A stretch of DNA of 64,000 nucleotides, from assembly GCF_002952775.1 (NCBI RefSeq), contig NZ_CP025066.1, positions 2,914,001-2,978,000 on the forward strand, given 5' to 3'. The DNA is from Halalkaliarchaeum desulfuricum (lineage in GTDB: Archaea > Halobacteriota > Halobacteria > Halobacteriales > Haloferacaceae). The notes beneath the pieces are model-generated. The model was not told the origin of the DNA. It saw nothing but the letters and a program-made list of their open reading frames with translations, and searched no databases. This document shows positions 48,628 through 63,507 of the stretch, piece after piece. How positions within the stretch are numbered: the first letter of the stretch is position 1; every line of letters begins with the position of its first letter. Position numbers and translations under genes: made by a program.

Positions 48628-49524
48628 TCACAGCCGAGGCGGCCCGTTCAGGGCGGGATCCGCACCGGTGTCGGTGGGCCTTGCGAGTTCGCGGGCGTAG
48701 CCGGACGCGCGGGCGGCCGTGAGGAACCGCGAGAGGGCGCCGAAGGCGAGGCGGTCTCGGGTTGGGAGGTCGCGATCGGGGCGCTTGATCCCGCTGGGTC
48801 GCGGGGGGATCCCGGGCCGACCGTAGCGGTCGGGGTAGAGGCGCTGGAGCTGGGCGAGTCCGCGGCCAACCCGGACATCCTTCTTGACGAGGGATCGGAG
48901 GGTGTTGCGGGTTGGATGAAAGACGGTTGCGTCGTCGGCGAATTCCATCCGGTAGCCCGCGTCGTGGACCCGGTTGCCGAACTCCTTGTCGCCGCCGGAG
49001 GCGAGGCGGGGATCGAAGAGGCCGACGTCCCGGAAGACCTCCCGGCGGACGAACAGACAGCACGTCGGGGCGAAGTGCTGGCGTTCGAGATATTGTTCGA
49101 CGGGGAAGCCGGTGTGGCGGTCGTATCGGGCAGCAAGGGAGGGGGTTTCGGGGAGGGTGAGTTCGACGTCGCAAGCGAGGTAGTCGGCGTCGGTGGCGTG
49201 GAACGTGTCGAGGGCGTTTTCGAGCCAGGAATCGGAGACGGTCATGTCGGCGTCGAGGAAGGCGAGAATGTTGGTCTCGGCGTTTCGAATGCCCGTGTTT
49301 CGGGCGGCGTAAGAGGACTGGATGTCGGTTTCGTGGAGGAGGGTGATCCGGTCGTCGTCGTAGGATCGGACGACGTCGGGAGTGCGGTCGGTGGAGGCGT
49401 TGTCGACGACGAGGACGTGGAAGTCGTGTTCTGTAGACTGTGTGAGGAGAGAGTCGAGGGTCGTGGAGATGCCAGCAGGATCGTTGTAGACGGGGACGAT
49501 AACCGACACGACAGGGTCATCCAT
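48628..49524 (-). CDS. Family 2 glycosyltransferase
   Basis: A 298-residue GT-A enzyme: VSVIVPVYNDPAGISTTLDS at 5-24, VVDNASTDRT, and the metal/nucleotide motif LAFLDADMTV (DAD near 92). It continues with HFAPTCCLFVRREVF and GGDKEFGNRVHDAGY (acceptor/base region). No membrane helix. It is a close paralogue of the gene at 62605-63507, in opposite orientation. It would add a sugar to a lipid-linked glycan. Confidence 0.93.
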   Translation of the reverse strand: MDDPVVSVIVPVYNDPAGISTTLDSLLTQSTEHDFHVLVVDNASTDRTPDVVRSYDDDRITLLHETDIQSSYAARNTGIRNAETNILAFLDADMTVSDSWLENALDTFHATDADYLACDVELTLPETPSLAARYDRHTGFPVEQYLERQHFAPTCCLFVRREVFRDVGLFDPRLASGGDKEFGNRVHDAGYRMEFADDATVFHPTRNTLRSLVKKDVRVGRGLAQLQRLYPDRYGRPGIPPRPSGIKRPDRDLPTRDRLAFGALSRFLTAARASGYARELARPTDTGADPALNGPPRL

Positions 49525-50308: not shown

Positions 50309-51412
50309 ATGCCGTCGCTCGAAGAGATTATCGTCGACAGCGCGACAGCGGGTCTTGATCTCCAAGCTGAAACTGGAGCGATGCCCGCAGGACACAACGG
50401 GCCTTACCACGATCCGGAGACGCCGGTCCGGAACACAGCCCATTGGCTCGTGACCTTCCTTTCGGCCCACGAGCACACGGGCGATGATCGATTCTGGGAC
50501 GCAGCCGACCGCGCGCTGTCGTACCTGCTCGGTGAGGAAGCTAGACCGGACGACTGGAGTTTCTCCCACCGGACAGGCGACGACAAAGATCAGTGTAACG
50601 GGTTGATTGGGCAGGCGTGGACCATCGAGGCGTTAGCCGAAGCAGTCGACGCCGGTCTCAGGCCCCAAGAGGCATGCAACGTAGCCACCGAGGTCTTCCT
50701 GGCACACCCCTTCGATGAGGCCCTGGCACTCTGGAAACGGGTCGAGCCAGACGGGAGCGTGTTACCGTACGATCGGACGTTCAACCATCAGGTGTGGTTC
50801 GCAGCTGCAGGAGGGTTATTGATCGATGGCGCCGGCCGTGATGCTGTCCCCTCAGTCGAGAGTCAGGTCCAACGGTTCCTCGAGCGACTTCCAGAGCTCA
50901 TGCGGTTGTATGATGACGGGGTTGTTTACCATCCACTTCGTCCGGAGTGGACCGGGGGAGAACGTTTATCGCTACTCCGGCCCGGAAAATGGCGACTTTT
51001 GAAGAACGACTGCTTCGCGTTGGTTCGGCCACCGAGCAGTCGGCGTCGCCTACGGAAAAAGGCCATCGGCTACCATTCCTTCAACCTTTACGGCCTGGCA
51101 CTGCTGAAACTGAGCTATCCGGACCACGAGGTGTGGAATCACGTCAAAATCGAGAGAGCACTTGCTGTCTTGCAGACCAAGTCGTATCAGTCGCAAATTA
51201 GCGACAACCCCTACGGATATCCGTACAACCCCCCTGGATTCGAGAACGCCCTGGCATTACAGGTGTTCGGCGACCGAGATCGAATTGCGTCGGAATGGGT
51301 CGATAGACAACTTCAGACCTGCTATGATCCGGAGAGCTATTTGATGACAAAGTGTTCGGAGGACGAAAACACGGCTGCCGCCCGATTGTATGAGGCGACG
51401 CGAATTATTTGA
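50309..51412 (+). CDS. AglQ-like (alpha/alpha)-barrel protein 1
   Basis: The 367-residue protein has motifs shared with its paralogue at 56630: NGPYHDPETPVRNTAHWL (30-47), QCNGLIGQAWTIEAL, PYDRTFNHQVWFAAAGGLL, and the end PPGFENALALQVFGD. This suits a six-hairpin barrel as in some glycoside hydrolases and in AglQ of the Haloferax agl cluster. AglQ takes part in N-glycan assembly, with an uncertain activity. The AglQ name rests on remembered family resemblance. Confidence 0.78.
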   Translation: MPSLEEIIVDSATAGLDLQAETGAMPAGHNGPYHDPETPVRNTAHWLVTFLSAHEHTGDDRFWDAADRALSYLLGEEARPDDWSFSHRTGDDKDQCNGLIGQAWTIEALAEAVDAGLRPQEACNVATEVFLAHPFDEALALWKRVEPDGSVLPYDRTFNHQVWFAAAGGLLIDGAGRDAVPSVESQVQRFLERLPELMRLYDDGVVYHPLRPEWTGGERLSLLRPGKWRLLKNDCFALVRPPSSRRRLRKKAIGYHSFNLYGLALLKLSYPDHEVWNHVKIERALAVLQTKSYQSQISDNPYGYPYNPPGFENALALQVFGDRDRIASEWVDRQLQTCYDPESYLMTKCSEDENTAAARLYEATRII

Positions 51413-51441
51413 TTATCGAATTTTCGAGTGATGTTTTCCCA

Positions 51442-52917
51442 CTAGACGTAGCCGAGACTTTCGAGGTGAGTGAGTGTCCCTTCGTCAATATCCCCTTGTC
51501 GCTTTGCAACTCCAGCGTCAGTATAACCACTAAATGCTTTCCTGACATTTTCATGAGGGTCTTCTTGCTTAACGGTTGCAGCAGTTTGAGCATCTTCTAT
51601 TTCGATTGTCACTCCGTCATCATCCCATACAAGATATTTTCGTATTATTCCGTCCTTTCGTCGATAAACTGCACGTATAGTCCCGCCGTACTTGCTAATA
51701 TCATCACAGTATCGGCCAGCACGCTGTTGACTTTTTAATTTATTGTCAACTGTCGAAGCAGATGCCACAACCGAGCTCTCCGGTACGAATTCGTCGCCAC
51801 TCCAGTTGTCTTTCAGGACAGCCTTGACTGTGTCTGGGAAACGTCGAAGTGTTGCTAACTCAGTAACCCGCTGGCTGTTCGATTGTCCTGGATATGATAC
51901 TAGTAATGGTACGTGGAGAAGTGATTCGTGGAGTCCAACAATATGGCCAGCAATCCGGAAGTCTGGTTTCACCCGACTATATTCTCCGAATCCTTCGCCG
52001 TGATCAGAGGTGATTACGACCAGCGTATCTTCAAATATGTTTCGCTCTTTTAGCTCTTGAATAAGAGACTGGAGATACGCGTCTGCCTGACGAATCGTTC
52101 CATCATACAAATCTTCTAAGCCGATCCACTCGTTCCAAGAGATTTCTCCACCATATACTTTCCAGGATGTTGGATCTATCGCTGCTTGCGTGCGTTGTTT
52201 CTTTTTTCCACCCCAAATATCGTATTCATTTGATGGATAAAAGGGAAGATGAGTGTCCATCAAATTAATACACGCTGCCCATGAACCTTCAGCTGCATCA
52301 ATCCACGAGTAAAATGGCTTGAGAAATCGGTCTGCAGAGTGGTCTAGCTTTTGTTCTAGCGTAGCAGAGGCAAAAGTTCGACTTAATTGCTTTGCGGCGC
52401 CGTTTGCAAGGCTCTTGATCGGCGTGCTATCGTCTATACAATGTAGGAGGTATTCAATATGCTTTGATCGATCGCTATCGCTTTGGAGATATTCTGGACT
52501 GTTAAAGAAAATATCTGGATCAGTTGCATCTGGAAACAACCTTCCGCGTCGCCCGACGACCTGATTGAATGCAGTTTTCAACGATCCGTCTCCTGTCAGA
52601 TTAACATTATCTGAGAAGACACCGGTTTCGTAGTCGTAGTCCTCGGCGAGTGTATGCCAAATTGTACTTTCTGGATCTAGGCTATGTGACACAAGATCGT
52701 GGATTCTGTGTTCTTCCACTTCAAGACCCGTGAACATACTTGTATGACTTGGAAGACTCGTCATACCGGGTGCTCGAGCTTGCGTATATACAGTGGCCTC
52801 TCTCGCAAACTGTTCAAAAAATGGAGTTGTTTTTCGATTGTAACCGTGAATACTCGTGTTTTTTGCTTTCACGCTATCCAACACGATAAGCAATATATGT
52901 GGCCGCTCAACTGACAT
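51442..52917 (-). CDS. Sulfatase/alkaline-phosphatase superfamily protein
   Basis: A 491-residue protein: RPHILLIVLDSVKAKNTSIHGY (metal Asp in LDS at 13-15), nucleophile region GMTSLPSHTSMFTG (about 51-64), NLMDTHLPFYP, and VVITSDHGEGFGEY (metal DH near 306). The nucleophile position is Ser/Thr (SLPSH) without the Cys-x-Pro-x-Arg of classical sulfatases, so phospho- or phosphoglycerol-type transfer, or a hydrolase, is more likely than formylglycine chemistry. It is soluble and transcribed against its neighbours. The DNA is AT-rich compared with the core. Confidence 0.85.
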   Translation of the reverse strand: MSVERPHILLIVLDSVKAKNTSIHGYNRKTTPFFEQFAREATVYTQARAPGMTSLPSHTSMFTGLEVEEHRIHDLVSHSLDPESTIWHTLAEDYDYETGVFSDNVNLTGDGSLKTAFNQVVGRRGRLFPDATDPDIFFNSPEYLQSDSDRSKHIEYLLHCIDDSTPIKSLANGAAKQLSRTFASATLEQKLDHSADRFLKPFYSWIDAAEGSWAACINLMDTHLPFYPSNEYDIWGGKKKQRTQAAIDPTSWKVYGGEISWNEWIGLEDLYDGTIRQADAYLQSLIQELKERNIFEDTLVVITSDHGEGFGEYSRVKPDFRIAGHIVGLHESLLHVPLLVSYPGQSNSQRVTELATLRRFPDTVKAVLKDNWSGDEFVPESSVVASASTVDNKLKSQQRAGRYCDDISKYGGTIRAVYRRKDGIIRKYLVWDDDGVTIEIEDAQTAATVKQEDPHENVRKAFSGYTDAGVAKRQGDIDEGTLTHLESLGYV

Positions 52918-53123
52918 TATCCGTAATCAATGTGTTTTGTAGGGCCTTTAATGTGATCATGAGATATACCATTAGGAAGATGAGATCTTTAGTACATATA
53001 GCCGGTTATCTCATACTAGCTAATTTATCATACTTTTCCTTTCAACCTGAAAGACATCGTTATCTCACTCGAGCGTACTTTCTTCGAGGGACTAATGACG
53101 CATAAGTAGTCAACTGTTTATAG

Positions 53124-53951
53124 ATGCAGAAACTCGTACGAAGGGCAACGAAAGTTTATCGAGAGGAGGGACTTGGCCCAACGATACGGAAATCGGCCCA
53201 GTTTATCCCTCGATACGTACGGCATGTGGCCGGTGCCAACGGACTATATTGTACTCCCTACTATCGCCGATTCCTGATCCGGTGGAACTCAAGAGGTTAC
53301 GCAACCATTGCAGACCCGTTCAAGATAATCACGATCAATCCGAATAAGATCACACGAGTTACTGGGCGAGGGCCCAATCCGGGACGGTTCCAGTGGCAAG
53401 ATATTGGAAAAATACAGGATAGTGATTGGGATCAAAATGATGAACGTGTTGAGAATCTCCCAGTCGTTCGGGCCCTCCGTCAACGCTTCGAACATGGAGA
53501 AGACTGGAAAGAGATTGACTTCATTGACCATGTCCTCCAAGAGATCACCCGTGGAAACGTTATTTGGCGAGAGTGTGCAAGCGAACAAGACGTGTGGGCT
53601 GAATGTTCGCGGATCGACGACCTTTATAAAAATATTCGCGAATCAGGATATCGTTCTCAACAGAAACTCGTCGAGGAAGGCAAAAAATCACCGGACAAAT
53701 ACTGTGATGGTGATCGCTTCAATTGTTATGATGAAGTGGCTGTAGATATTGGTCGAGAGGGAGAATTTCTCTTCGTCGATGGACGCCACCGACTGGCAAT
53801 CGCGAAAATCTTGGACCTCGACGAAATTCCGGTGAGGGTGTCTGCCCGCCACGAGGCATGGCAGCAAGTCAGGGAACGAACGGCGGATACTGCTTCCAAT
53901 AACCTCGAATCTCGCTTGAATCACCCTGACTTAGTAGATATCTCTCCATAG
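53124..53951 (+). CDS. ParB-fold (sulfiredoxin-like) protein 1 of glycan cluster
   Basis: A 275-residue protein. The C-terminal half has a ParB/Srx-like core: EVAVDIGREGEFLFVDGRHR then LAIAKILDLDEIPVRVSARH (DGRHRLAIAK is the GxxRxxA-type loop). The N-terminal half (RATKVYREEGLGPTIRKSAQ; WDQNDERVENLPVVRALRQRFE; WKEIDFIDHVLQEI) is mostly helical and shared with the next gene. Not a plasmid ParB: no HTH. Related folds include kinases and nucleases. Role unknown. 52918-53123 before it is AT-rich and empty. Confidence 0.72.
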   Translation: MQKLVRRATKVYREEGLGPTIRKSAQFIPRYVRHVAGANGLYCTPYYRRFLIRWNSRGYATIADPFKIITINPNKITRVTGRGPNPGRFQWQDIGKIQDSDWDQNDERVENLPVVRALRQRFEHGEDWKEIDFIDHVLQEITRGNVIWRECASEQDVWAECSRIDDLYKNIRESGYRSQQKLVEEGKKSPDKYCDGDRFNCYDEVAVDIGREGEFLFVDGRHRLAIAKILDLDEIPVRVSARHEAWQQVRERTADTASNNLESRLNHPDLVDISP

Positions 53952-53967
53952 AGAGCATTCATAAATA

Positions 53968-54768
53968 ATGCATGACAAAATCAGAGAAGGAATAGCTGTG
54001 TTACGAACAGAGGGTTTGTTAGCCTTTCTTGCATCTTTCCTTCGAGTTGTAGGGGCCAACTACCAGGGATATTACTATTACCTCAAGTACAAGATCCGGA
54101 GTTTCGTACGTTCTGCCCCCACCTCTGATCCGCTTTCGGTTATTAAAGTCCGACCGGATCAGGTTCGACATCGCGCCACCAGACATGTTGATAAATGGGA
54201 AGATATAGGTCAGGTGTGGGATGGCGACTGGGATCGTGATCTCCCACCCGTAGATAGTTCGATCAAGTATCGAAGCGTGGTAGAACGGTTTCGAAATGAC
54301 ACTCCATGGCAGGAAACCGAAGTATATCAAACTGCTCTCAAGAAAATCGAATCGGGAGAGTCATACTGGAATGGCTGCCGTTCTCGGGATGAACTCAAGA
54401 AGCGCACAAGCACTGTGGACGAACTCTACCGAGATATCCGTGATTCAGGTTTCAAATCGCAGTCGGAAATTCACGGGAAAAGTGTCAAAGAAATCCTTCT
54501 CAGCGGCTCGTTCGACCGATCAAAAACGGACGTGACTGTAGCTATCGGTCGGGACGGGGAAATCCTGTTTGTCGATGGGAATCACCGTTTCGCTATCGCA
54601 CACGTCCTCGGTCTTGATGAACTACCCGTGAGAGTTGTCGTCAGGCACGCACAGTGGCACAAGATCCGGGAAAGCATACGGGATTCGGACGACCCAGATT
54701 CACTTCCCGAAACGTACAGGCAGTATCTCGATCATCCTGACATCGAGTCAGTCCTCTCCAACACCTGA
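53968..54768 (+). CDS. ParB-fold (sulfiredoxin-like) protein 2 of glycan cluster
   Basis: A 266-residue paralogue, 16 bases after the first. It has EDIGQVWDGDWDRDLPPVDS, WQETEVYQTALKKIESGESY, ELYRDIRDSGFKSQSEI, and the core VTVAIGRDGEILFVDGNHRF with AIAHVLGLDELPVRVVVRHA. The order of blocks is the same in both. The pair is probably an ancient duplication, as the sequences differ at many positions outside the motifs. It may form a complex with its partner. Confidence 0.72.
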   Translation: MHDKIREGIAVLRTEGLLAFLASFLRVVGANYQGYYYYLKYKIRSFVRSAPTSDPLSVIKVRPDQVRHRATRHVDKWEDIGQVWDGDWDRDLPPVDSSIKYRSVVERFRNDTPWQETEVYQTALKKIESGESYWNGCRSRDELKKRTSTVDELYRDIRDSGFKSQSEIHGKSVKEILLSGSFDRSKTDVTVAIGRDGEILFVDGNHRFAIAHVLGLDELPVRVVVRHAQWHKIRESIRDSDDPDSLPETYRQYLDHPDIESVLSNT

Positions 54769-54836
54769 AGCGGTTGTTTTCATCAACAGTTATACCCCAC
54801 GGCCGCCCGACTTACATCAACCTCGTATCGCTATCT

Positions 54837-56297
54837 ATGCGCCTGGGTCAAACCTCCCTCATCTACTTCGTCGCCAAGATCATCGGTTCCGCACTGGGAT
54901 TTCTGGCGACAATCTACTTCGCCCGAGTTCTCGGCGAGGTCGTACTCGGATACTACGCACTCGCACTCGCACTCGTGAGCTGGCTCGCCCTGGGCGGTCG
55001 GATCGGCCTCTCGCAGGCGATCACCAAGCGAATCAGCGAAGAAACCGAATCCGAGTCGTACGCAACTGCTGGCGTGCTGTTGATCGGGACGTTCGGCCTC
55101 ATCATGGCTGTTGGTGTCTATCTCTTTCGTGGACATGTAGAGGCGTACATCGGCCAACCGGTCGCCGTCCTCGTAATTTTGATGCTGTTCGCATCACTGT
55201 TCAAGGGATTCATCAACGCCGCACTCAAGGGCTATCACTTCGTCCACATCTATGCGATACTTTCGACGACCAAAATCGGGCTCCGGAGCCTCATTCAGGT
55301 CGCTCTGGTGGTCGTCGGGTACAGTCTCGTCGGGCTCCTGGTTGGTTACGTCGCTGGTGCCGTGATCGTTGGCTTCATCGGCCTCGCCGTGCTTCAATTC
55401 CGTCCAACCCGCCCACGAAAGGAACACTTTAAAAGCCTCTTCGACTTCGCGAAGTTCTCTTGGCTCGGGAGCATCCGCCACCGCGCATTCAACGAAGTCG
55501 ACATCGTCGTCCTCGGATTTTTCGTCCAGACTGGACTCATCGGCGTCTACTCGGTCGCATGGGCACTGTCAAAGTTCCTGGACATCTTCGGGGAATCCGT
55601 CAGCAACACGCTCTTCCCCGAGATGAGCAAGATCGCGACCGCCGAGGATCGAAAGGCCGTCTCCGGGCTTACCGAGGACGCGCTCGCTTTCGCCGGCCTG
55701 ATCGCCATCCCCGGATTCGTCGGCGGGACGGTCCTCGCGGACCGCCTGATGGCGATCTACGGCGAGGGGTTCGTCGTCGGCCAGGTGGTGCTGCCGATCC
55801 TCATTGGGGCGCTGTTGATCTACGCGTTCACCCGGCAGTTCCTCAACACCCTCAACGCGATCGACCGTCCGGACCTGGCGTTTCGCGCAAACGGGGCGTT
55901 TATCCTCTCGAACGTGACCCTGAACGTGCTCTTGATCTGGCGGTACGGCTGGGTCGGGGCCGCGGTCGCGACGGCGGTCTCGGCAGCGATCGGCCTGGTG
56001 GTCGCCTACTACTACCTCCGGCCGCAGGTCCCGTTCGAGGTGCCCCTGGGCGAGATCGGCCGCCAATGGATCGCAGCGATCGGAATGGGCGCCGTGGTCT
56101 ACGCCGCCCGTCGGCTTGGAGAAACCCACCCGGCAGCAGAGACGCTCGTCGCCTACAACGCCGCCTTCGTCGTCGTGCTCGTCGGGATCGGCGCTGCCGT
56201 CTACTTCCTGCTGTTGCTCGCCATCTCCGGGCAGTTCCGCCGCACGGTCGACGACAACCTCCCAATAGGCGTTCCCAAGAACTCGGGGAGAGGGTGA
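54837..56297 (+). CDS. Polysaccharide/oligosaccharide flippase (Wzx/AglR type)
   Basis: From MRLGQTSLIYFVAKIIGSAL (54837) the protein has 486 residues and about 12-14 membrane helices of the MATE/PST (MurJ/Wzx-like) type: IYFVAKIIGSALGFLATIYF, GLSQAITKRISEETESES (cytoplasmic loop), and VDIVVLGFFVQTGLIGVYSV. It would move the lipid-linked oligosaccharide to the outer face, as AglR does in Haloferax. The frame open from 54774 adds a non-helical stub. The 5' half is AT-richer than the 3' half (from about 55600). Confidence 0.9.
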   Translation: MRLGQTSLIYFVAKIIGSALGFLATIYFARVLGEVVLGYYALALALVSWLALGGRIGLSQAITKRISEETESESYATAGVLLIGTFGLIMAVGVYLFRGHVEAYIGQPVAVLVILMLFASLFKGFINAALKGYHFVHIYAILSTTKIGLRSLIQVALVVVGYSLVGLLVGYVAGAVIVGFIGLAVLQFRPTRPRKEHFKSLFDFAKFSWLGSIRHRAFNEVDIVVLGFFVQTGLIGVYSVAWALSKFLDIFGESVSNTLFPEMSKIATAEDRKAVSGLTEDALAFAGLIAIPGFVGGTVLADRLMAIYGEGFVVGQVVLPILIGALLIYAFTRQFLNTLNAIDRPDLAFRANGAFILSNVTLNVLLIWRYGWVGAAVATAVSAAIGLVVAYYYLRPQVPFEVPLGEIGRQWIAAIGMGAVVYAARRLGETHPAAETLVAYNAAFVVVLVGIGAAVYFLLLLAISGQFRRTVDDNLPIGVPKNSGRG

Positions 56298-56629
56298 TCT
56301 GGCACCAGCGACAAAAGAGTCCTTAATCGTCCACGATTCTCCCAGACACCATTTACTGAGTTCCGAACTTCCAAATGAAAACGCCTTAACAGATGAGACA
56401 AATATATTCTGTATGATTTCCCCAACATGATGAGAACTTCCATTCATTACATTTTGAAGCGAAAGACGCCATGTTGAATATCATCGAAATTAGACGACGG
56501 GTTGGAAAATACATAGTAGCCATCGTTTAAGGCGAAGGATAAGAAAAGCTCAATACAAATGATGAGGATATCCAACACAAGTACTACCACACCATTTATT
56601 AGTTTAACGTTTTTATTTTGATTAATTGA
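56298..56629. other. AT-rich intergenic region without a gene
   Basis: Only reading frames of 20 codons or fewer occur. The last 40 bases (TTTATTAGTTTAACG and TTTTTATTTTGATTAATTG) are very AT-rich and hold the promoter of the AglQ-like gene at 56630. The drop in GC right after the flippase suggests a join between DNA of different origin. Confidence 0.6.
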
Positions 56630-57775
56630 ATGTCTGAGTGCGAGTCAGGTGAAGTAGAGTTTGTCACGATTCATGAACTGCTGGAACGGAGTGCGGAATC
56701 CGCTCTCGAACTCCAGCGCAACGACGGATCGTTTCCTCCCGGGAATAATGGCCCATATCAAGACGATAGCACTCCTGTTCGAAACACAGCAAACTGGCTG
56801 AAAATCCTCTCATTCGTGTATGAACAAACGGGTAAAAGAAAATTCAAACAAGCTTCGAATTCAGCGGTAGAATACCTGAAACAGGATGAACTCCGCCCGT
56901 ACGGTTATACGTATATTTGTAGGAGATCAAACAAAAAAGATTCATGCAACGGTGTTGTGGGCCAAGCCAACGTAATTGAAGCAATGGGAAGAGCTGGGAA
57001 TTATTTAGATAAACCTGAATTATATGACTTTGCCGCCCAAATATACAACTTACATCCTTTTAATAAAAACATAGGTGTTTGGAACCGAAGAGAGATTGAT
57101 GGGACAATATTAACAACGGACCGAACATTTAATCATCAGCTGATTTTTGCTACAGCGAGTAGTTTGATTTCCGATCTGAACGACAGAAATGAGATGCATA
57201 GAGAGATATCAGTATTCCTCAACAATTTGTCTCAAAACATGGGTTATGATTCATCAGGACTTATTATTCACCGTCTTAGACCCACAATTGGCTTATTTGA
57301 CATTGTATCCATACTCCGCGATAAATCTCCAGAGCTTTTTCTTAATCAGATTTTGCATACGAAGCGACGGATCCTTCAGGACAAAGATGTAAAAAGTAAG
57401 GAACAGGGCTATCAATCTGTTAATCTGTACTGGTTGGCAAATTTAAAAAGACGAAGGCCAGAACACGATATTTGGTCTGATCTTCCTATAAATAAATTAA
57501 TCAACGTAACTAGAACGACCGAGTATAGATCTCAAGCAAAGCAAAGTGTAAATTGGTTCAGTAATATGCCACCTGGATTTGAAATAGCACATGCATTAAA
57601 CACATTTGATCAGGACCCGGATTACAATGAAATGAGGTATTGGATAGAAATGGCTCTTAACAACCATTATGATAAAAAAACAAACCAATTTGTGAAAAAT
57701 TGTGATGACCCAGACACACTGAATGCTCTGTTATACAAGTTAATTGACTTGCCCAATCTGAGCGTAAGACTGTAA
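56630..57775 (+). CDS. AglQ-like (alpha/alpha)-barrel protein 2
   Basis: A 381-residue paralogue of the protein at 50309. It has NNGPYQDDSTPVRNTANWLK (about 39-58), SCNGVVGQANVIEAMGRAG, TTDRTFNHQLIFATASSLI, and PPGFEIAHALNTFDQDPDYN. Codon use is AT-rich, unlike copy 1, so the two were probably acquired separately. The conserved DRTFNHQ and CNG..GQA blocks would line the barrel pocket. Function as for copy 1. Confidence 0.78.
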   Translation: MSECESGEVEFVTIHELLERSAESALELQRNDGSFPPGNNGPYQDDSTPVRNTANWLKILSFVYEQTGKRKFKQASNSAVEYLKQDELRPYGYTYICRRSNKKDSCNGVVGQANVIEAMGRAGNYLDKPELYDFAAQIYNLHPFNKNIGVWNRREIDGTILTTDRTFNHQLIFATASSLISDLNDRNEMHREISVFLNNLSQNMGYDSSGLIIHRLRPTIGLFDIVSILRDKSPELFLNQILHTKRRILQDKDVKSKEQGYQSVNLYWLANLKRRRPEHDIWSDLPINKLINVTRTTEYRSQAKQSVNWFSNMPPGFEIAHALNTFDQDPDYNEMRYWIEMALNNHYDKKTNQFVKNCDDPDTLNALLYKLIDLPNLSVRL

Positions 57776-57823
57776 TTCCTGAACAAATGGAAGGGGCTGC
57801 CGTTGATTTCAAACTTTAATAAG

Positions 57824-58600
57824 ATGGTTGGAAAAAGAGATATATTTGACAGGGTGCGAGATAGTGATTCAATCCAGAGAGGAGTATCATTAATATTTAA
57901 TCGTCGATTCCAATCAGGAAAGAAAAACGGTTCTGTGGAACTTCCGTATAGACTCTACCTCCCGAACTGCTACAACAAACACGATGAAAAACGGTATCCG
58001 ATCGTTTTGACTTTTCATGGAGCGGGTAAACGAGGGAGAGACAACCGAAGACAGATTTATAGTAGTGCTGTATTTTTTTCAAGTAATCGTGTTCAACGGA
58101 GAGAGCCCTGTTTTGTTCTCGCACCACAATGTCCGCCGGGAAATTCATGGGTGAATTTGAAATCATGGAGTGAAGGTACTCATCCATTACGAGAAATAAC
58201 CCCGGCACTCCAGACATCAATACAGCTACTTGATGATTTACTTGACGAGTATCGAATTGATCGCGGAAGACAATTCGTAACAGGATTTTCGATGGGAGGA
58301 TACGGTACTTGGGATGCAATAACACGTTTTCCAAACAGGTTTGAAGCCGCGATACCTATTTCAGGTGGTGGAACGCCGGGAGCAGCGGACCGGTTAGATA
58401 GAGTTAAAGTCTGGGCGTTTCACGGCGCAGAGGACGACACAGTACCAGTGAGTGGGACACGAAGAATGATCGAAGCGATGCGAAATGAAGGGCTTGATCC
58501 CCGATACACTGAATTCGAAGCACTTGGTCACTCTTCAAGACCAGTCTTCAGACAAGAGGGGTTAATAGAGTGGTTATTCGACCCTAATACAGGCGAATAA
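57824..58600 (+). CDS. Alpha/beta hydrolase (esterase/phospholipase type)
   Basis: The protein of about 258 residues has PIVLTFHGAGKRGRDN (oxyanion region), VLAPQCPPGNSW, the nucleophile elbow FVTGFSMGGYGTWDA (GFSMG), and VWAFHGAEDDTVPVSGTRRM (Asp) with a late His in EALGHSS. All three catalytic residues are visible. It resembles PHB-depolymerase/feruloyl-esterase-like enzymes. In this cluster it may remove or transfer acyl groups on the glycan. The first ATG is used; a TTG 21 bases upstream is possible. Confidence 0.82.
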   Translation: MVGKRDIFDRVRDSDSIQRGVSLIFNRRFQSGKKNGSVELPYRLYLPNCYNKHDEKRYPIVLTFHGAGKRGRDNRRQIYSSAVFFSSNRVQRREPCFVLAPQCPPGNSWVNLKSWSEGTHPLREITPALQTSIQLLDDLLDEYRIDRGRQFVTGFSMGGYGTWDAITRFPNRFEAAIPISGGGTPGAADRLDRVKVWAFHGAEDDTVPVSGTRRMIEAMRNEGLDPRYTEFEALGHSSRPVFRQEGLIEWLFDPNTGE

Positions 58601-58689
58601 AACACACGTCCCTCTGTCCAAACGCGGGGAGCTTTCTACTACTAAGAGCGAAAACGATATCCATCGGTAGCCCAACCAAGTTAGTAATT

Positions 58690-60474
58690 ATGAAAGACGA
58701 CTGTGAAATTCTCTTTTTTGGCGATGAAATCACCGAGAACACGGTCCCATTATTTGAATCAGAACTCCTGAACCGATACTCCCGAGACGATTTTGAGATC
58801 TCCACTGAAATTCTATCTGATGGAACTTCCGACGAAGCGAAAGCACACTTTGATTCGATCGATTTATCGGCTTTTGATGTGCTTGTTCTTGACTTTGGTT
58901 TCTACGACTGGAAAAAGGATATCTCATCGTCTCTATTCCGCCAGAACCTCTCCGAAATCGTTTCGAAATCTCGGAATCAAGATCTTCGAGTTATCGTGAG
59001 TACTATTCACCCTGTTGAGAACTCGATTCTTTTAGGAACTACGGCGATTGATCGCGAGTACAACGAGGTGATCCGTGAACTGGCTGAGGAATACGGAGTC
59101 CAAGTAGCGGACGTATATCAGTGGTGGGAAGAAAAGATACTGCTCACTAGACGTTATTTGAAAAACAGTGAAAAACCGAATCCGAAAGGTCGACAATTAA
59201 TAGCTGAGTCATTTTCTCACGTCGTTCCACAATCACATAAAGTCATTTTATGGCAGTTCAACGGTCGAGCGAACGCTAATTGTAACTACGACTGTCCGTA
59301 TTGTTATTATCCCACAGACAACGAGAATTTCTCTTTTGGTTCTCCTTCCGAGTGGAAAGAAGTTTTCAAAAACACATTCGGTGAGCAAGATCTTATTTTC
59401 TATTTCACGTTTGCGGAACCAACAATTGCAAGAGAGTTTTTTGATTATGTTGAAATGATCGGATCTGTCGAGAATTGGGAGCTGCGTATTACTACGAATC
59501 TCTCCCTCCCAGAGAAGTCACTCAAAAAGCTAGCTAATACCAAACTAGCGAATGAAGACCGACTCCACATTAATGCGTCTTTCCATCCCTCCCAAACAAG
59601 TATTGATGGGTTTATTGAAAGGCACCAAGTTCTACGCGAGAACGGTATCGAAGCCCCCGTTATTTATGTAATGTATCCGCCTCAAATTGACGTGTTTAAA
59701 GACCATTTCGAAAGATTTGACGAGCGGAACATTCTCGTTCATGTGAGGCCATATCAAGGTGAAGGTTACCCAAACGCGTATACAGATCACCAGCGCAAGC
59801 AGATCGCACGATATACCGATACAGCCACGATACGGTATGTGCTAAACCGGAAACCGCCGTTTGATCGTCATACTTATGCAGGTCTTCACTTCTATATCGT
59901 CGATGCGGCCGGCAATATTGGTTATGACTCTAACAGTTTCCAGTGGCATACACGGTACAGAACGATGTATGGAAATCTAATCCAATATAACTCTTTAGAT
60001 CTTCCAACAATTCCTCCAAAATATCCTAAAGGAGATTATCCAAAAACCGTCGATGGTGTTAGTAATCTGCTTGAAGTCGATTATAAACAGCTGGAGGGCA
60101 ACAATGTCCTTTCATACGCTGAACAGGGCGGCGTATATCGAACTGAAGACGGTGTAGTTTACGAAAATATGGAAAAGGACTTTCAAGATAGCTCTGTGAG
60201 GGCGCAGTACTACTTTCCGAGCCGGAACGTGCGAGATGCATTCCACAAATTCTGGTTGTTCGGGATCAAAAATTCCCTCAAATACATCTGGTTGAAATAC
60301 GTCGAGAACCGAATACATCTATATTTCAAACACACCCAACAAACCTATGAAACGGACGGGATTAGAGGTGTTCTAAAGCAAGCCTACCTTCATTTAAAAG
60401 AAGGGCTGCCTGGAAGCGAGGAAATGGAGCGTGAAGTCGTGAAAAGTCCTCTTGAAGAGTCGGATGATCGGTAA
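58690..60474 (+). CDS. SGNH-like domain fused to a radical SAM domain
   Basis: A 594-residue protein. Residues 1-185 have the SGNH/GDSL layout: ILFFGDEITEN (block I), LVLDFGFYDW (block III), and NPKGRQLIAESF (block V). The catalytic Ser, Asn and His are all replaced (GDE, GFYD, PNPKG). Residues 190-430 form a radical SAM domain with CNYDCPYCYYP (Cys near 203, 207, 210; CxxxCxxC) and FAEPTIAREFF. A tail of 150 residues has no SPASM-like Cys cluster. It would use SAM radical chemistry on a substrate bound by the dead SGNH part. Overlaps none; the next gene starts 2 bases later. Confidence 0.82.
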   Translation: MKDDCEILFFGDEITENTVPLFESELLNRYSRDDFEISTEILSDGTSDEAKAHFDSIDLSAFDVLVLDFGFYDWKKDISSSLFRQNLSEIVSKSRNQDLRVIVSTIHPVENSILLGTTAIDREYNEVIRELAEEYGVQVADVYQWWEEKILLTRRYLKNSEKPNPKGRQLIAESFSHVVPQSHKVILWQFNGRANANCNYDCPYCYYPTDNENFSFGSPSEWKEVFKNTFGEQDLIFYFTFAEPTIAREFFDYVEMIGSVENWELRITTNLSLPEKSLKKLANTKLANEDRLHINASFHPSQTSIDGFIERHQVLRENGIEAPVIYVMYPPQIDVFKDHFERFDERNILVHVRPYQGEGYPNAYTDHQRKQIARYTDTATIRYVLNRKPPFDRHTYAGLHFYIVDAAGNIGYDSNSFQWHTRYRTMYGNLIQYNSLDLPTIPPKYPKGDYPKTVDGVSNLLEVDYKQLEGNNVLSYAEQGGVYRTEDGVVYENMEKDFQDSSVRAQYYFPSRNVRDAFHKFWLFGIKNSLKYIWLKYVENRIHLYFKHTQQTYETDGIRGVLKQAYLHLKEGLPGSEEMEREVVKSPLEESDDR

Positions 60475-60476
60475 TC

Positions 60477-61565
60477 ATGGCGGATAAGGTTGGATACGCT
60501 GGTTGGATCGGTCACAATAATATTGGGGATGAGGCCCTGTTAGCGGCGAATAGACGCCTTTTCAGTGATATAGAATTTATTGACTTCCGATACTGGAATG
60601 GATACGATTCGCTTTTCCTTGGCGGTGGAACTATTTTACCGCAATTTCTTGTCGGAGGGGAACCGGAAGTCGGGCGCAGTAATCATTTTACCGCTGCAAT
60701 TGGAGTAGGTATTCGAGATTCCGATTTCTGGAATCAGCAGCTGGCTCCGATAGATATTCGGTATCTTGCAGGACGAATAGGACTCTCGGGAGTTATTAGA
60801 AACAAATACATTGAATACCTTCTTGAGCCTGCTGAATACCTTTCCTCTAACATATTAGCTACTGGATATTATTTTTCCGATGAAGATTATCGTGCGATTG
60901 GCGAGTATGAGTTTGACCATTTAGGCGTTCGAGGGCCGTTATCTCAGGAAATACTCTCTAAGTACGATATCGACTGTGAACTGGTGGGCGACACAGCATT
61001 AGTGCTTGAGCCGTCATCTACAGAGATCCAGCGGGAAAAAAAGATAGCGGTCTGTCTCCAGCACGATAAGCTAAAATGGGCTAGAAACGAGGATTACCTA
61101 CACCACGTCGTCGAATTTCTTTCCGAATTGTCCTCAGAATATAGAATCGTGTTTCTTCCTTTTCAAAAGGAAGACATATCGATGCATATTGACCTCAGCA
61201 ATAATCTAGATAGCGCTGAGTTCAAGAATTATTGTTCCCCAATGGATGTGCAAGGAGCAATCAACGAAATCGCGTCCTGTGAATACATGATCGGTGAGAA
61301 GCTTCACGCAAACATATTGAGCGCATGTAGTTACACTCCGTTTATTTCACTAGAATATAGACCGAAATGTTTAGACTTCGCTGCTTCTGTTGGAATGACT
61401 GACTATAACATTCGTATTGATAAACTCACGAAAGATAAGTTAAAAATCATATACGAAAATATGGTAGATAGTGATTGTGTGGTCGATAAACTGGAGTCAG
61501 AGGTAAGCAAGAAACGTGAGAACATACGCCAATTTGCACACAAAGTAGATGCAGATCTAGTATGA
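60477..61565 (+). CDS. Polysaccharide pyruvyl transferase
   Basis: A 362-residue GT-B-like enzyme of the CsaB/WcaK family: GYAGWIGHNNIGDEALLAAN (6-25), LFLGGGTILPQF, GVRGPLSQEILSKYDIDCEL, and the late IGEKLHANILSACSYTPFIS (about 271-290). It adds a pyruvyl ketal from PEP to a sugar, giving acidic surface glycans. It lies 2 bases after the radical SAM gene and overlaps the next glycosyltransferase by 4 bases, so the three genes are one translational unit. Confidence 0.88.
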   Translation: MADKVGYAGWIGHNNIGDEALLAANRRLFSDIEFIDFRYWNGYDSLFLGGGTILPQFLVGGEPEVGRSNHFTAAIGVGIRDSDFWNQQLAPIDIRYLAGRIGLSGVIRNKYIEYLLEPAEYLSSNILATGYYFSDEDYRAIGEYEFDHLGVRGPLSQEILSKYDIDCELVGDTALVLEPSSTEIQREKKIAVCLQHDKLKWARNEDYLHHVVEFLSELSSEYRIVFLPFQKEDISMHIDLSNNLDSAEFKNYCSPMDVQGAINEIASCEYMIGEKLHANILSACSYTPFISLEYRPKCLDFAASVGMTDYNIRIDKLTKDKLKIIYENMVDSDCVVDKLESEVSKKRENIRQFAHKVDADLV

Positions 61566-62467
61566 CTGCGTCTTCGAAACGAACGAGACCTCTTGTATCG
61601 ATAGTTACCCCAGTCTACGCCGATCCTGAAGGCCTCCAAACTACCCTCCAAAGTTCTGTTGAGCAACGTCATAGTTCGTTTGAAATCGTTGTTGCCGTAA
61701 CTCCCTCCTCAGGAAAAACACTTGAAGTAGCAGAAGAATATACATCAAAGTACTCAGAACTAATACGTGTTGTCAAAGTTCAAGAGAAGGGGAGAGCTAG
61801 AGCTAGGAATGCTGGAATAGAGGAAGCAAACGGTGAGATTATCGCATTTGTCGATGCCGATATCTGGATGGACCCTGACTGGTTGGAGAACGCGATTTTA
61901 GATATGAAAACCAAGGGGGCACATTATCTCGCTTGTAGTGTTAGCATTTCTTCCACCACCGACAATGGTGGATTTATTGAAAGATACGATCGGGCTTTGT
62001 CGATCCCAGTAAAGCACTATATCGAAGAGTATCACTTCGCTCCGACAGCAGCCCTGTTGCTTACTCGTGGCCTTATCGAGGAAGTAGGAACTTTTGATCC
62101 AGAATTGACGTCTGGAGAGGACCGTGAGTTCGGAAATCGTGTATACGAACGAGGATATGAACTCTATGTGAGCGACTGTGAGGTGTATCACCCTCCCCGA
62201 AAGAAGGTATCGGACCAAACTCAAAAAGCAATCAGAATCGGGGTTGGAATGGAGCAGCTCCGTCGCCAATACCCAGATAGATATTCGCTTCCGAGTTTGA
62301 TGTCGCCGCTTTCGTATGCTCCTCCGAATCCCAAACGCCTCAGATCTCGACTTTCGAGTAATAGTTACAAGCCAGACTTCCTCGAATGGATGCTCTTTTA
62401 TTTATTTAATTACTTTTTGAAATTGTACCAACAACTCGGCCGATGGCAGCACTTTCGTAACCGTTAG
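61562..62467 (+). CDS. Family 2 glycosyltransferase
   Basis: A 301-residue GT-A enzyme: VSIVTPVYADPEGLQTTLQS, GRARARNAGIEEANGEIIAF, VDADIWMDPDWLENAI (DAD near 92), FAPTAALLLTRGLI, and SGEDREFGNRVYERGYEL. A C-terminal hydrophobic stretch (EWMLFYLFNYFLKLYQQ) may touch the membrane. Overlaps the pyruvyl transferase stop (ATGA). Confidence 0.92.
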   Translation: MTASSKRTRPLVSIVTPVYADPEGLQTTLQSSVEQRHSSFEIVVAVTPSSGKTLEVAEEYTSKYSELIRVVKVQEKGRARARNAGIEEANGEIIAFVDADIWMDPDWLENAILDMKTKGAHYLACSVSISSTTDNGGFIERYDRALSIPVKHYIEEYHFAPTAALLLTRGLIEEVGTFDPELTSGEDREFGNRVYERGYELYVSDCEVYHPPRKKVSDQTQKAIRIGVGMEQLRRQYPDRYSLPSLMSPLSYAPPNPKRLRSRLSSNSYKPDFLEWMLFYLFNYFLKLYQQLGRWQHFRNR

Positions 62468-62604
62468 TAGGATAGATCATATCTCTGGAAAACAAGCTTC
62501 TATTGAATACCATTGATAAATGATTTTTCTCAATATCTCGACGATCCCCTGTTTCAACGCATTCATACCATGATTAGAAGTCACTTACACCCACTGAACT
62601 ACCG

Positions 62605-63507
62605 ATGATTGACTCATCAGTCGATATCATAACCCCCGTCTACAACGATCCCAACGGAATCACCGAGACCCTCGACTCCCTCCTCGCTCAGTCTACCACA
62701 CACGACTACCACATCGCTATCGTCGACAACGACTCCACCGATCGCACCCCCGACATCGTCCGTTCGTACGACCACGACCACCTCACTCTCCATCACGAAC
62801 GCGAGGTCCAGTCCTCTTACGCCGCCCGCAACACGGGCATCCGCAACACCGACAGCGATATCCTCGCATTCGTCGACGCCGATATGTCCGTTCCCGAGAA
62901 CTGGCTCGAGGACGCTCTCACCGCGTTCCGCGCCGCCGAAGCCGACTACATGGGCTGTCACGTCGAGCTCGAACTCCCGGAGAATCCGACTCTCGCCGCA
63001 CGCTACGACCACCACACAGGCTTCCCAGTCGAGGGCTACATCGAACGACAGCAGTTCGCCCCGACCTGCTGTCTGTTCGTCCGCCGCGAGGTGTTTGCGG
63101 ACGTCGGCCTGTTCGATCACCGCCTCGAGTCCGGCGGCGACAAGGAGTTCGGAAACCGCGTTCACGACGCGGGCTACGACCAGCACTTCGCGAGCGATGT
63201 CACGATGACGCACCCGACCAGGAACTCGATCCCCCAACTCGTCTCGAAGGACCGCCGCGTCGGCCGCGGCCTCTGCCAGCTCCAGCGGTACCACCCCGAC
63301 CGCTACGGTACGCCCGGCGTCCCGCCGCGTCCGACCGGGATCAAGCGCCCCGATCGCGATCTCCCGACGCGTGATCGCCTCGCGTTCGGCACACTCTCGA
63401 CGTTCCTCACGGGCGTCCGGGGACTCGGCTACTACCAGGAGTACCTGACTGGCGACCGACGTGACGACGGCGACGGAATCCCGCAGCTTCCGGCTGCCGA
63501 TCGATAA
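62605..63507 (+). CDS. Family 2 glycosyltransferase, paralogue of 48628-49524
   Basis: A 300-residue enzyme: IITPVYNDPNGITETLDSLL, LAFVDADMSVPENWLEDAL, QFAPTCCLFVRREVFADVGL, and GGDKEFGNRVHDAGYDQHF. It matches the left-hand enzyme over its full length at roughly two thirds of positions by eye, including the C-terminal GIKRPDRDLPTRDRLAFG. GC content returns to the core level. It may act on the same donor or acceptor. Confidence 0.93.
   Translation: MIDSSVDIITPVYNDPNGITETLDSLLAQSTTHDYHIAIVDNDSTDRTPDIVRSYDHDHLTLHHEREVQSSYAARNTGIRNTDSDILAFVDADMSVPENWLEDALTAFRAAEADYMGCHVELELPENPTLAARYDHHTGFPVEGYIERQQFAPTCCLFVRREVFADVGLFDHRLESGGDKEFGNRVHDAGYDQHFASDVTMTHPTRNSIPQLVSKDRRVGRGLCQLQRYHPDRYGTPGVPPRPTGIKRPDRDLPTRDRLAFGTLSTFLTGVRGLGYYQEYLTGDRRDDGDGIPQLPAADR

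Follow-up and report, generated by a model that had tools for sequence, protein, structure and literature searches.

An SGNH-fold domain without its catalytic residues, fused to a radical SAM domain in a low-GC glycan island of Halalkaliarchaeum desulfuricum

What might a radical SAM enzyme do with an esterase-like domain from which the catalytic residues have gone? The question is raised by a single gene of the archaeon Halalkaliarchaeum desulfuricum, lying in a 64,000-nt stretch of DNA – the whole of what was analysed here, and referred to below as the window – that covers positions 2,914,001–2,978,000 of the forward strand of NZ_CP025066.1 (assembly GCF_002952775.1). An original prediction had described the product as a radical SAM protein with a catalytically dead SGNH domain, encoded in a glycan cluster. 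The answer favoured here, with a probability of roughly 0.5, is that the protein is a rare radical SAM glycan-modifying enzyme, in which a former O-acyl esterase domain has been kept as a non-catalytic binding or structural module.

The coordinates first given for the gene, and the division of its product into an SGNH and a radical SAM half, proved right. The frame runs without interruption from ATG to stop (Table 1), and both domains score above their Pfam cut-offs: PF13472 (SGNH/GDSL) covers residues 9–169 (E 7.6e-13; 46.9–49.8 bits, gathering cut-off 32.9), and residues 197–296 match PF04055 (radical SAM; E 1.2e-11; 45.5 bits, cut-off 29.5). In an AlphaFold model built from a three-sequence alignment, residues 1–150 reach pLDDT values mostly of 70–93, with a weak loop near residues 110–119. 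The SGNH fold is borne out by structural comparison (Foldseek, VIA-align 2), in which SGNH esterases – CrmE10, AlinE4 and the acetylxylan esterases AlAXEase (7ddy) and Axe2 (3w7v) – head the ranking for the N-terminus at Z 15–17 over ~150 residues, and by a profile of three SGNH domains (from the window protein and two homologues), which matches PDB SGNH esterases at E 1e-13. A weak Pfam OSK match on the window protein reflects the SGNH fold in common.

The counter-case named with the original prediction was a B12-binding Rossmann fold at the N-terminus, which would make the protein a B12-binding radical SAM enzyme mistaken for an SGNH fusion. It was rejected: alongside the PF13472 match, no B12-binding Pfam model matches the N-terminus up to E 1; SGNH esterases fill the fold searches, which list neither B12-binding nor other non-SGNH folds (not taken as proof in itself); and the homologues carry intact GDS, GMND and DxxH motifs. 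The probability left to this reading is vanishingly small.

Two full-length homologues provide the reference for the active site: one from a Methanophagales archaeon (L002/L006; 585 aa, 41% identity) and one from a bacterial metagenome-assembled genome, or MAG (L005; 884 aa, 38% identity), which has an extra methyltransferase domain at its C-terminus; both identities extend over about 512 residues. The three proteins share in alignment their two-domain order, a conserved linker and a C-terminal QGGVY...NM..DF motif, and statements on the family rest on these few sequences, three members being known here. Both homologues keep Ser, Asn, Asp and His in their GDS, GMND and DxxHPN motifs (DEIH in one, DTLH in the other). 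The window protein has lost Ser, Asn and His, as had been claimed, and also Asp (Table 1). The codon of Glu13 is GAA, and since no Ser codon can be reached from it by one base change, the loss of the nucleophile is not accounted for by a single read error. With the nucleophile, the oxyanion-hole Asn and the Asp–His pair gone, the window protein should be unable to use the SGNH mechanism.

All the replacements are polar or charged, none small or hydrophobic, as would suit a repurposed pocket in which Glu13, Tyr72, Asp73, Asn159 and Lys162 make up a new site for catalysis or for phosphate/carboxylate binding. However, the searches turned up neither another sequence bearing the same replacements nor a comparable site, and this explanation is improbable.

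Because the SGNH residues are intact in both homologues, the esterase was probably lost in the lineage of the window, from an ancestor that fused a live esterase to a radical SAM domain. The divergence of the two halves differs. PF13472 scores 91 and 86 bits in the homologues versus 47 in the window protein; of the positions identical in both homologues, the window protein keeps 34/75 in the SGNH part and, in the radical SAM part, 109/181, among which are all three cluster cysteines; and its identity to them is 27–32% in the former part and 46–48% in the latter. The SGNH branch of the window protein is 1.56-fold longer than the radical SAM part predicts (three sequences; ratio ≤1 in a fraction 0.055 of bootstrap replicates), which is no more than suggestive of relaxed constraint or faster evolution of the SGNH domain on that branch, since the 95% range (0.94–2.67) includes 1.

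The family is sparsely distributed. The gene occurs in 1/391 genomes of the window's class, and is thus absent from the other 390, as it is from one other genome of the genus that was searched; a conserved haloarchaeal neighbourhood, looked for following the original prediction, is accordingly rejected. A sample of the phylum added one genome, that of the Methanophagales archaeon, from outside the class sample, and a collection of 84,980 species added the bacterial MAG, in a search of limited sensitivity, its short patterns having been drawn from just two sequences. No further members were detected among 53 genomes of the Methanophagales homologue's order or the nine of the MAG's phylum group, and a radical SAM profile run against 341 genomes of the class and 384 of the phylum returned nothing beyond the two known archaeal members. 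The MAG is labelled Pseudomonadota; as the genome set contains only those nine genomes for its phylum group, this placement is uncertain. Among mobile elements, the window protein alone found no relatives in IMG/VR and no match on plasmids, its radical SAM half had no match in phages, and plasmid searches with the two homologues gave, among the matches listed, matches to the SGNH part only. Lateral transfer would be compatible with this scattered occurrence and with the low GC content of the locus.

In the radical SAM half, the CxxxCxxC motif is intact, as originally described. The cluster ligands C198, C202 and C205, together with C5, are the only cysteines of the whole window protein; there are none C-terminal to the barrel of the SPASM/twitch auxiliary-cluster kind, and such clusters cannot be built. 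The GGEP-type SAM-binding motif reads FAEP in the window protein, FGEP and HGEP in the homologues and GGEP in phage relatives, and this substitution may mean that radical SAM activity is reduced in the window protein. A model built with the phage relatives has a partial TIM barrel, for which NifB, MoaA, viperin, EpeE and BlsE tie at Z about 11–12; these tied matches confirm, at the level of a model, the radical SAM fold and leave the reaction undefined. Residues 350–594 are predicted at pLDDT <60 nearly throughout and mostly <50 (two predictions, few sequences), and the radical SAM part has no match among PDB sequences at E 0.01.

None of the named radical SAM subfamily models tested reaches its cut-off. 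The best-scoring NCBIfam model, the 278-position STM4011 family (NF038073), matches only the radical SAM part of the window protein, on residues 196–410, at 43 bits, the cut-off being 200; TIGR04466 gives E 0.032 and 13.7 bits against 400. The top Foldseek matches of the radical SAM model are to anSMEcpe, and the island also contains a sulfatase-like PF00884 gene, as might be expected if the domain modified a protein – for instance as the sulfatase maturase of that gene. The anSME model TIGR03942 scores only 14.4 bits against its cut-off of 349.45, however, SPASM-type auxiliary cysteines are absent, no sulfatase gene was seen within 10 kb on either side of the bacterial homologue, and barrel similarity is unspecific in any case, MoaA, viperin and EpeE tying. 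Action on a protein is therefore judged very improbable.

Outside the family, the closest relatives in the searches run are radical SAM proteins of uncultivated phages (phrog_13987; IMG/VR loci L007 and L012–L032), with 24–29% identity over residues 198–366. They have no fused SGNH domain and, unlike the window protein, carry C-terminal cysteines resembling an auxiliary-cluster site. Several of the phage loci (L020:7833-16604, L007, L014, L015, L018, L019, L026, L028, L029 and L032) hold arrays of 5–8 CxxxCxxC ORFs, among them the nearest radical SAM relatives of the fusion family, and often a stand-alone SGNH-like ORF that starts with FGDSFT or GCSYT and whose Pfam match is below cut-off or absent. 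The radical SAM protein of L020 had no match among named phages.

The surroundings of the gene are those of a glycan cluster, as had been predicted, with a Wzx-like flippase, GT2 genes and a pyruvyl transferase (Table 1). G+C content in this island is mostly 0.37–0.52, the one exception being a 1-kb stretch at 0.60 where the flippase lies, versus 0.60–0.70 upstream. Co-translation with the pyruvyl transferase and the glycosyltransferase is upheld by spacing only: the former gene begins after a gap of 2 bp, and the latter overlaps its stop by 4 bp. A PF04230 gene is adjacent in 3/3 loci (E 4e-21, 3e-22 and 7e-40), upstream and overlapping in the Methanophagales archaeon and directly downstream in the bacterium. 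The three pyruvyl transferases are only distantly similar to one another, and adjacency at any single locus is weak evidence, since glycan clusters often contain a PF04230 gene. An N-glycosylation cluster anchored by aglB was considered and rejected, the genome's single STT3/AglB match lying about 0.27 Mb away.

Table 1. Positions of the fusion gene, its domains and altered residues, and neighbouring features, numbered within the window
Feature	Position	Strand	Basis
SGNH–radical SAM fusion protein	58690–60474	+	Single open frame, 594 aa; full-length homologues in two other genomes
N-terminal SGNH/GDSL-fold domain, residues 1–180	58690–59229	+	PF13472, AlphaFold model, alignment to intact homologues
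Radical SAM domain with family-specific C-terminal extension, residues 181–515	59230–60234	+	PF04055, 46–48% identity to homologues, partial TIM barrel
CxxxCxxC (C198, C202, C205)	59281–59304	+	Sequence motif in radical SAM domain
Glu13 replacing catalytic Ser (GDS to GDE), block I	58726–58728	+	Alignment to two homologues, both GDS
Tyr72 replacing Asn (GMND to GFYD), block III	58903–58905	+	Alignment; GMND in both homologues
Asn159 replacing catalytic Asp, block V	59164–59166	+	Alignment; DEIHPN/DTLHPN to NSEKPN
Lys162 replacing catalytic His, block V	59173–59175	+	Alignment; DEIHPN/DTLHPN to NSEKPN
Alpha/beta-hydrolase esterase, intact-looking GFSMGG nucleophile elbow	57803–58600	+	PF00326 E 8e-9, PF02230 E 8e-8
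Polysaccharide pyruvyl transferase (PF04230)	60477–61565	+	E 4.2e-21
GT2 family glycosyltransferase	61562–62467	+	PF00535 E 1.7e-24
Polysaccharide flippase (Wzx/MurJ-like)	54774–56297	+	PF01943 E 2.9e-20
Sulfatase-superfamily gene (PF00884)	51442–52917	-	Pfam; in glycan island
Low-GC glycan island	51000–62600		Composition profile

An alpha/beta-hydrolase gene, PHB-depolymerase/feruloyl-esterase-like, ends 89 bp upstream of the fusion gene and is possibly a replacement esterase. Around it a different account can be built, in which the SGNH half is a vestige with a structural role only, the esterase work having moved to this neighbour. The neighbour's serine elbow looks intact, neither homologous locus – each with an intact SGNH domain – showed such an esterase in its flanks, and the longer SGNH branch of the window protein would fit as well. 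However, a domain that scores above its Pfam cut-off and folds confidently is not simply decaying. This account is rather unlikely.

Other features of the region are recorded here as observations. The sulfatase-like gene has, by eye, His where sulfatases normally have Arg (motif SLPSHTSMFTG), and genes related to it flank the Methanophagales locus. Two GT2 genes, 48628–49524 (-) and 62605–63507 (+), lie 13.1 kb apart as inverted copies, 78% identical over 799 nt, that bracket the low-GC island and could permit its inversion or the exchange of cassettes. Two paralogues of the island without a known family, 50309–51412 and 56630–57775, are 36% identical and have GPYxDxxTPVRNTAxWL and DRTFNHQ as conserved motifs. 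Neither matches a PDB sequence, and the second lacks any Pfam match that clears its cut-off; our guess is a helical-barrel epimerase like haloarchaeal Agl32 (PMC13308652). The adjacent, similar genes 53124–53951 and 53968–54768 have no Pfam match either, and share a DGRHRLAIAxxLxLxxIPVRV-like motif reminiscent, by eye, of ParB-type domains. About 15 kb downstream of the window (L040:16741-19341), genes resembling a sialic-acid-type synthase and a CMP-sugar synthetase, again by eye, probably mark a second glycan locus nearby.

Returning to the favoured reading – a radical SAM glycan-modifying enzyme with a retained non-catalytic module – the ancestor would have been an O-acyl (probably O-acetyl) SGNH esterase fused to a single-cluster radical SAM domain, and would have shared one glycan substrate with a polysaccharide pyruvyl transferase. 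Its SGNH domain would deacylate a glycan or sugar, the radical SAM domain would then alter that sugar, and pyruvylation would be a further decoration. In the window protein, the esterase step would have fallen away, either because the substrate has ceased to carry an acyl group or because the upstream alpha/beta-hydrolase takes over, and the kept SGNH fold would most likely hold the sugar or glycan near the radical SAM domain, or else stabilise that domain. The original prediction had likewise pictured it as a putative carbohydrate- or acyl-binding module that would present glycan to the radical centre. The radical SAM domain is predicted still to cleave SAM and to perform hydrogen-abstraction chemistry on the sugar. 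With no auxiliary-cluster cysteines, and with C5 as the only cysteine outside the motif, neither an auxiliary-cluster dehydrogenase nor an epimerase using a cysteine as hydrogen donor is expected; by analogy with DesII or BlsE, a redox-neutral or elimination-type step would be. This proposal leans on the chemistry of DesII, BlsE, NeoN and EpeE as well as on the cysteine count. BlsE and DesII are single-cluster enzymes that act on sugar substrates; their barrels match the window model at Z 11.1 and 9.4, but their sequence similarity to the window protein is negligible (TIGR04466, above) and there is no shared accessory domain.

The diversion of an SGNH-like domain to another use, as proposed here, has a parallel in the OSK domain of insect Oskar, which has lost its catalytic residues and binds RNA, although Oskar is an animal protein from an unrelated setting, with no radical SAM domain. 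The proteins nearest to OSK are bacterial SGNH-like hydrolases (PMC7250577).

The portions available of the literature on radical SAM proteins with SGNH/GDSL domains make no such fusion apparent, the word 'radical' is absent from an SGNH review (PMC9487903), and no paper was found on radical SAM proteins together with pyruvyl transferases and polysaccharides. The window protein combines two known domains in a fusion that appears not to have been described, and represents a natural dead version of it. More broadly, an undescribed two-step family may exist, in which SGNH deacylation is followed by radical chemistry on the freed sugar and the window copy is a pseudo-esterase whose dead domain presents the sugar; we put this forward as a tentative idea, possible rather than probable. 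Little work appears to have been done on radical SAM steps in the surface glycans of archaea. If the idea is true, radical SAM chemistry and polysaccharide de-acylation would be joined in one protein, and the live and dead SGNH domains of the family would form a natural before-and-after pair with which to probe what an accessory domain contributes to a radical enzyme.
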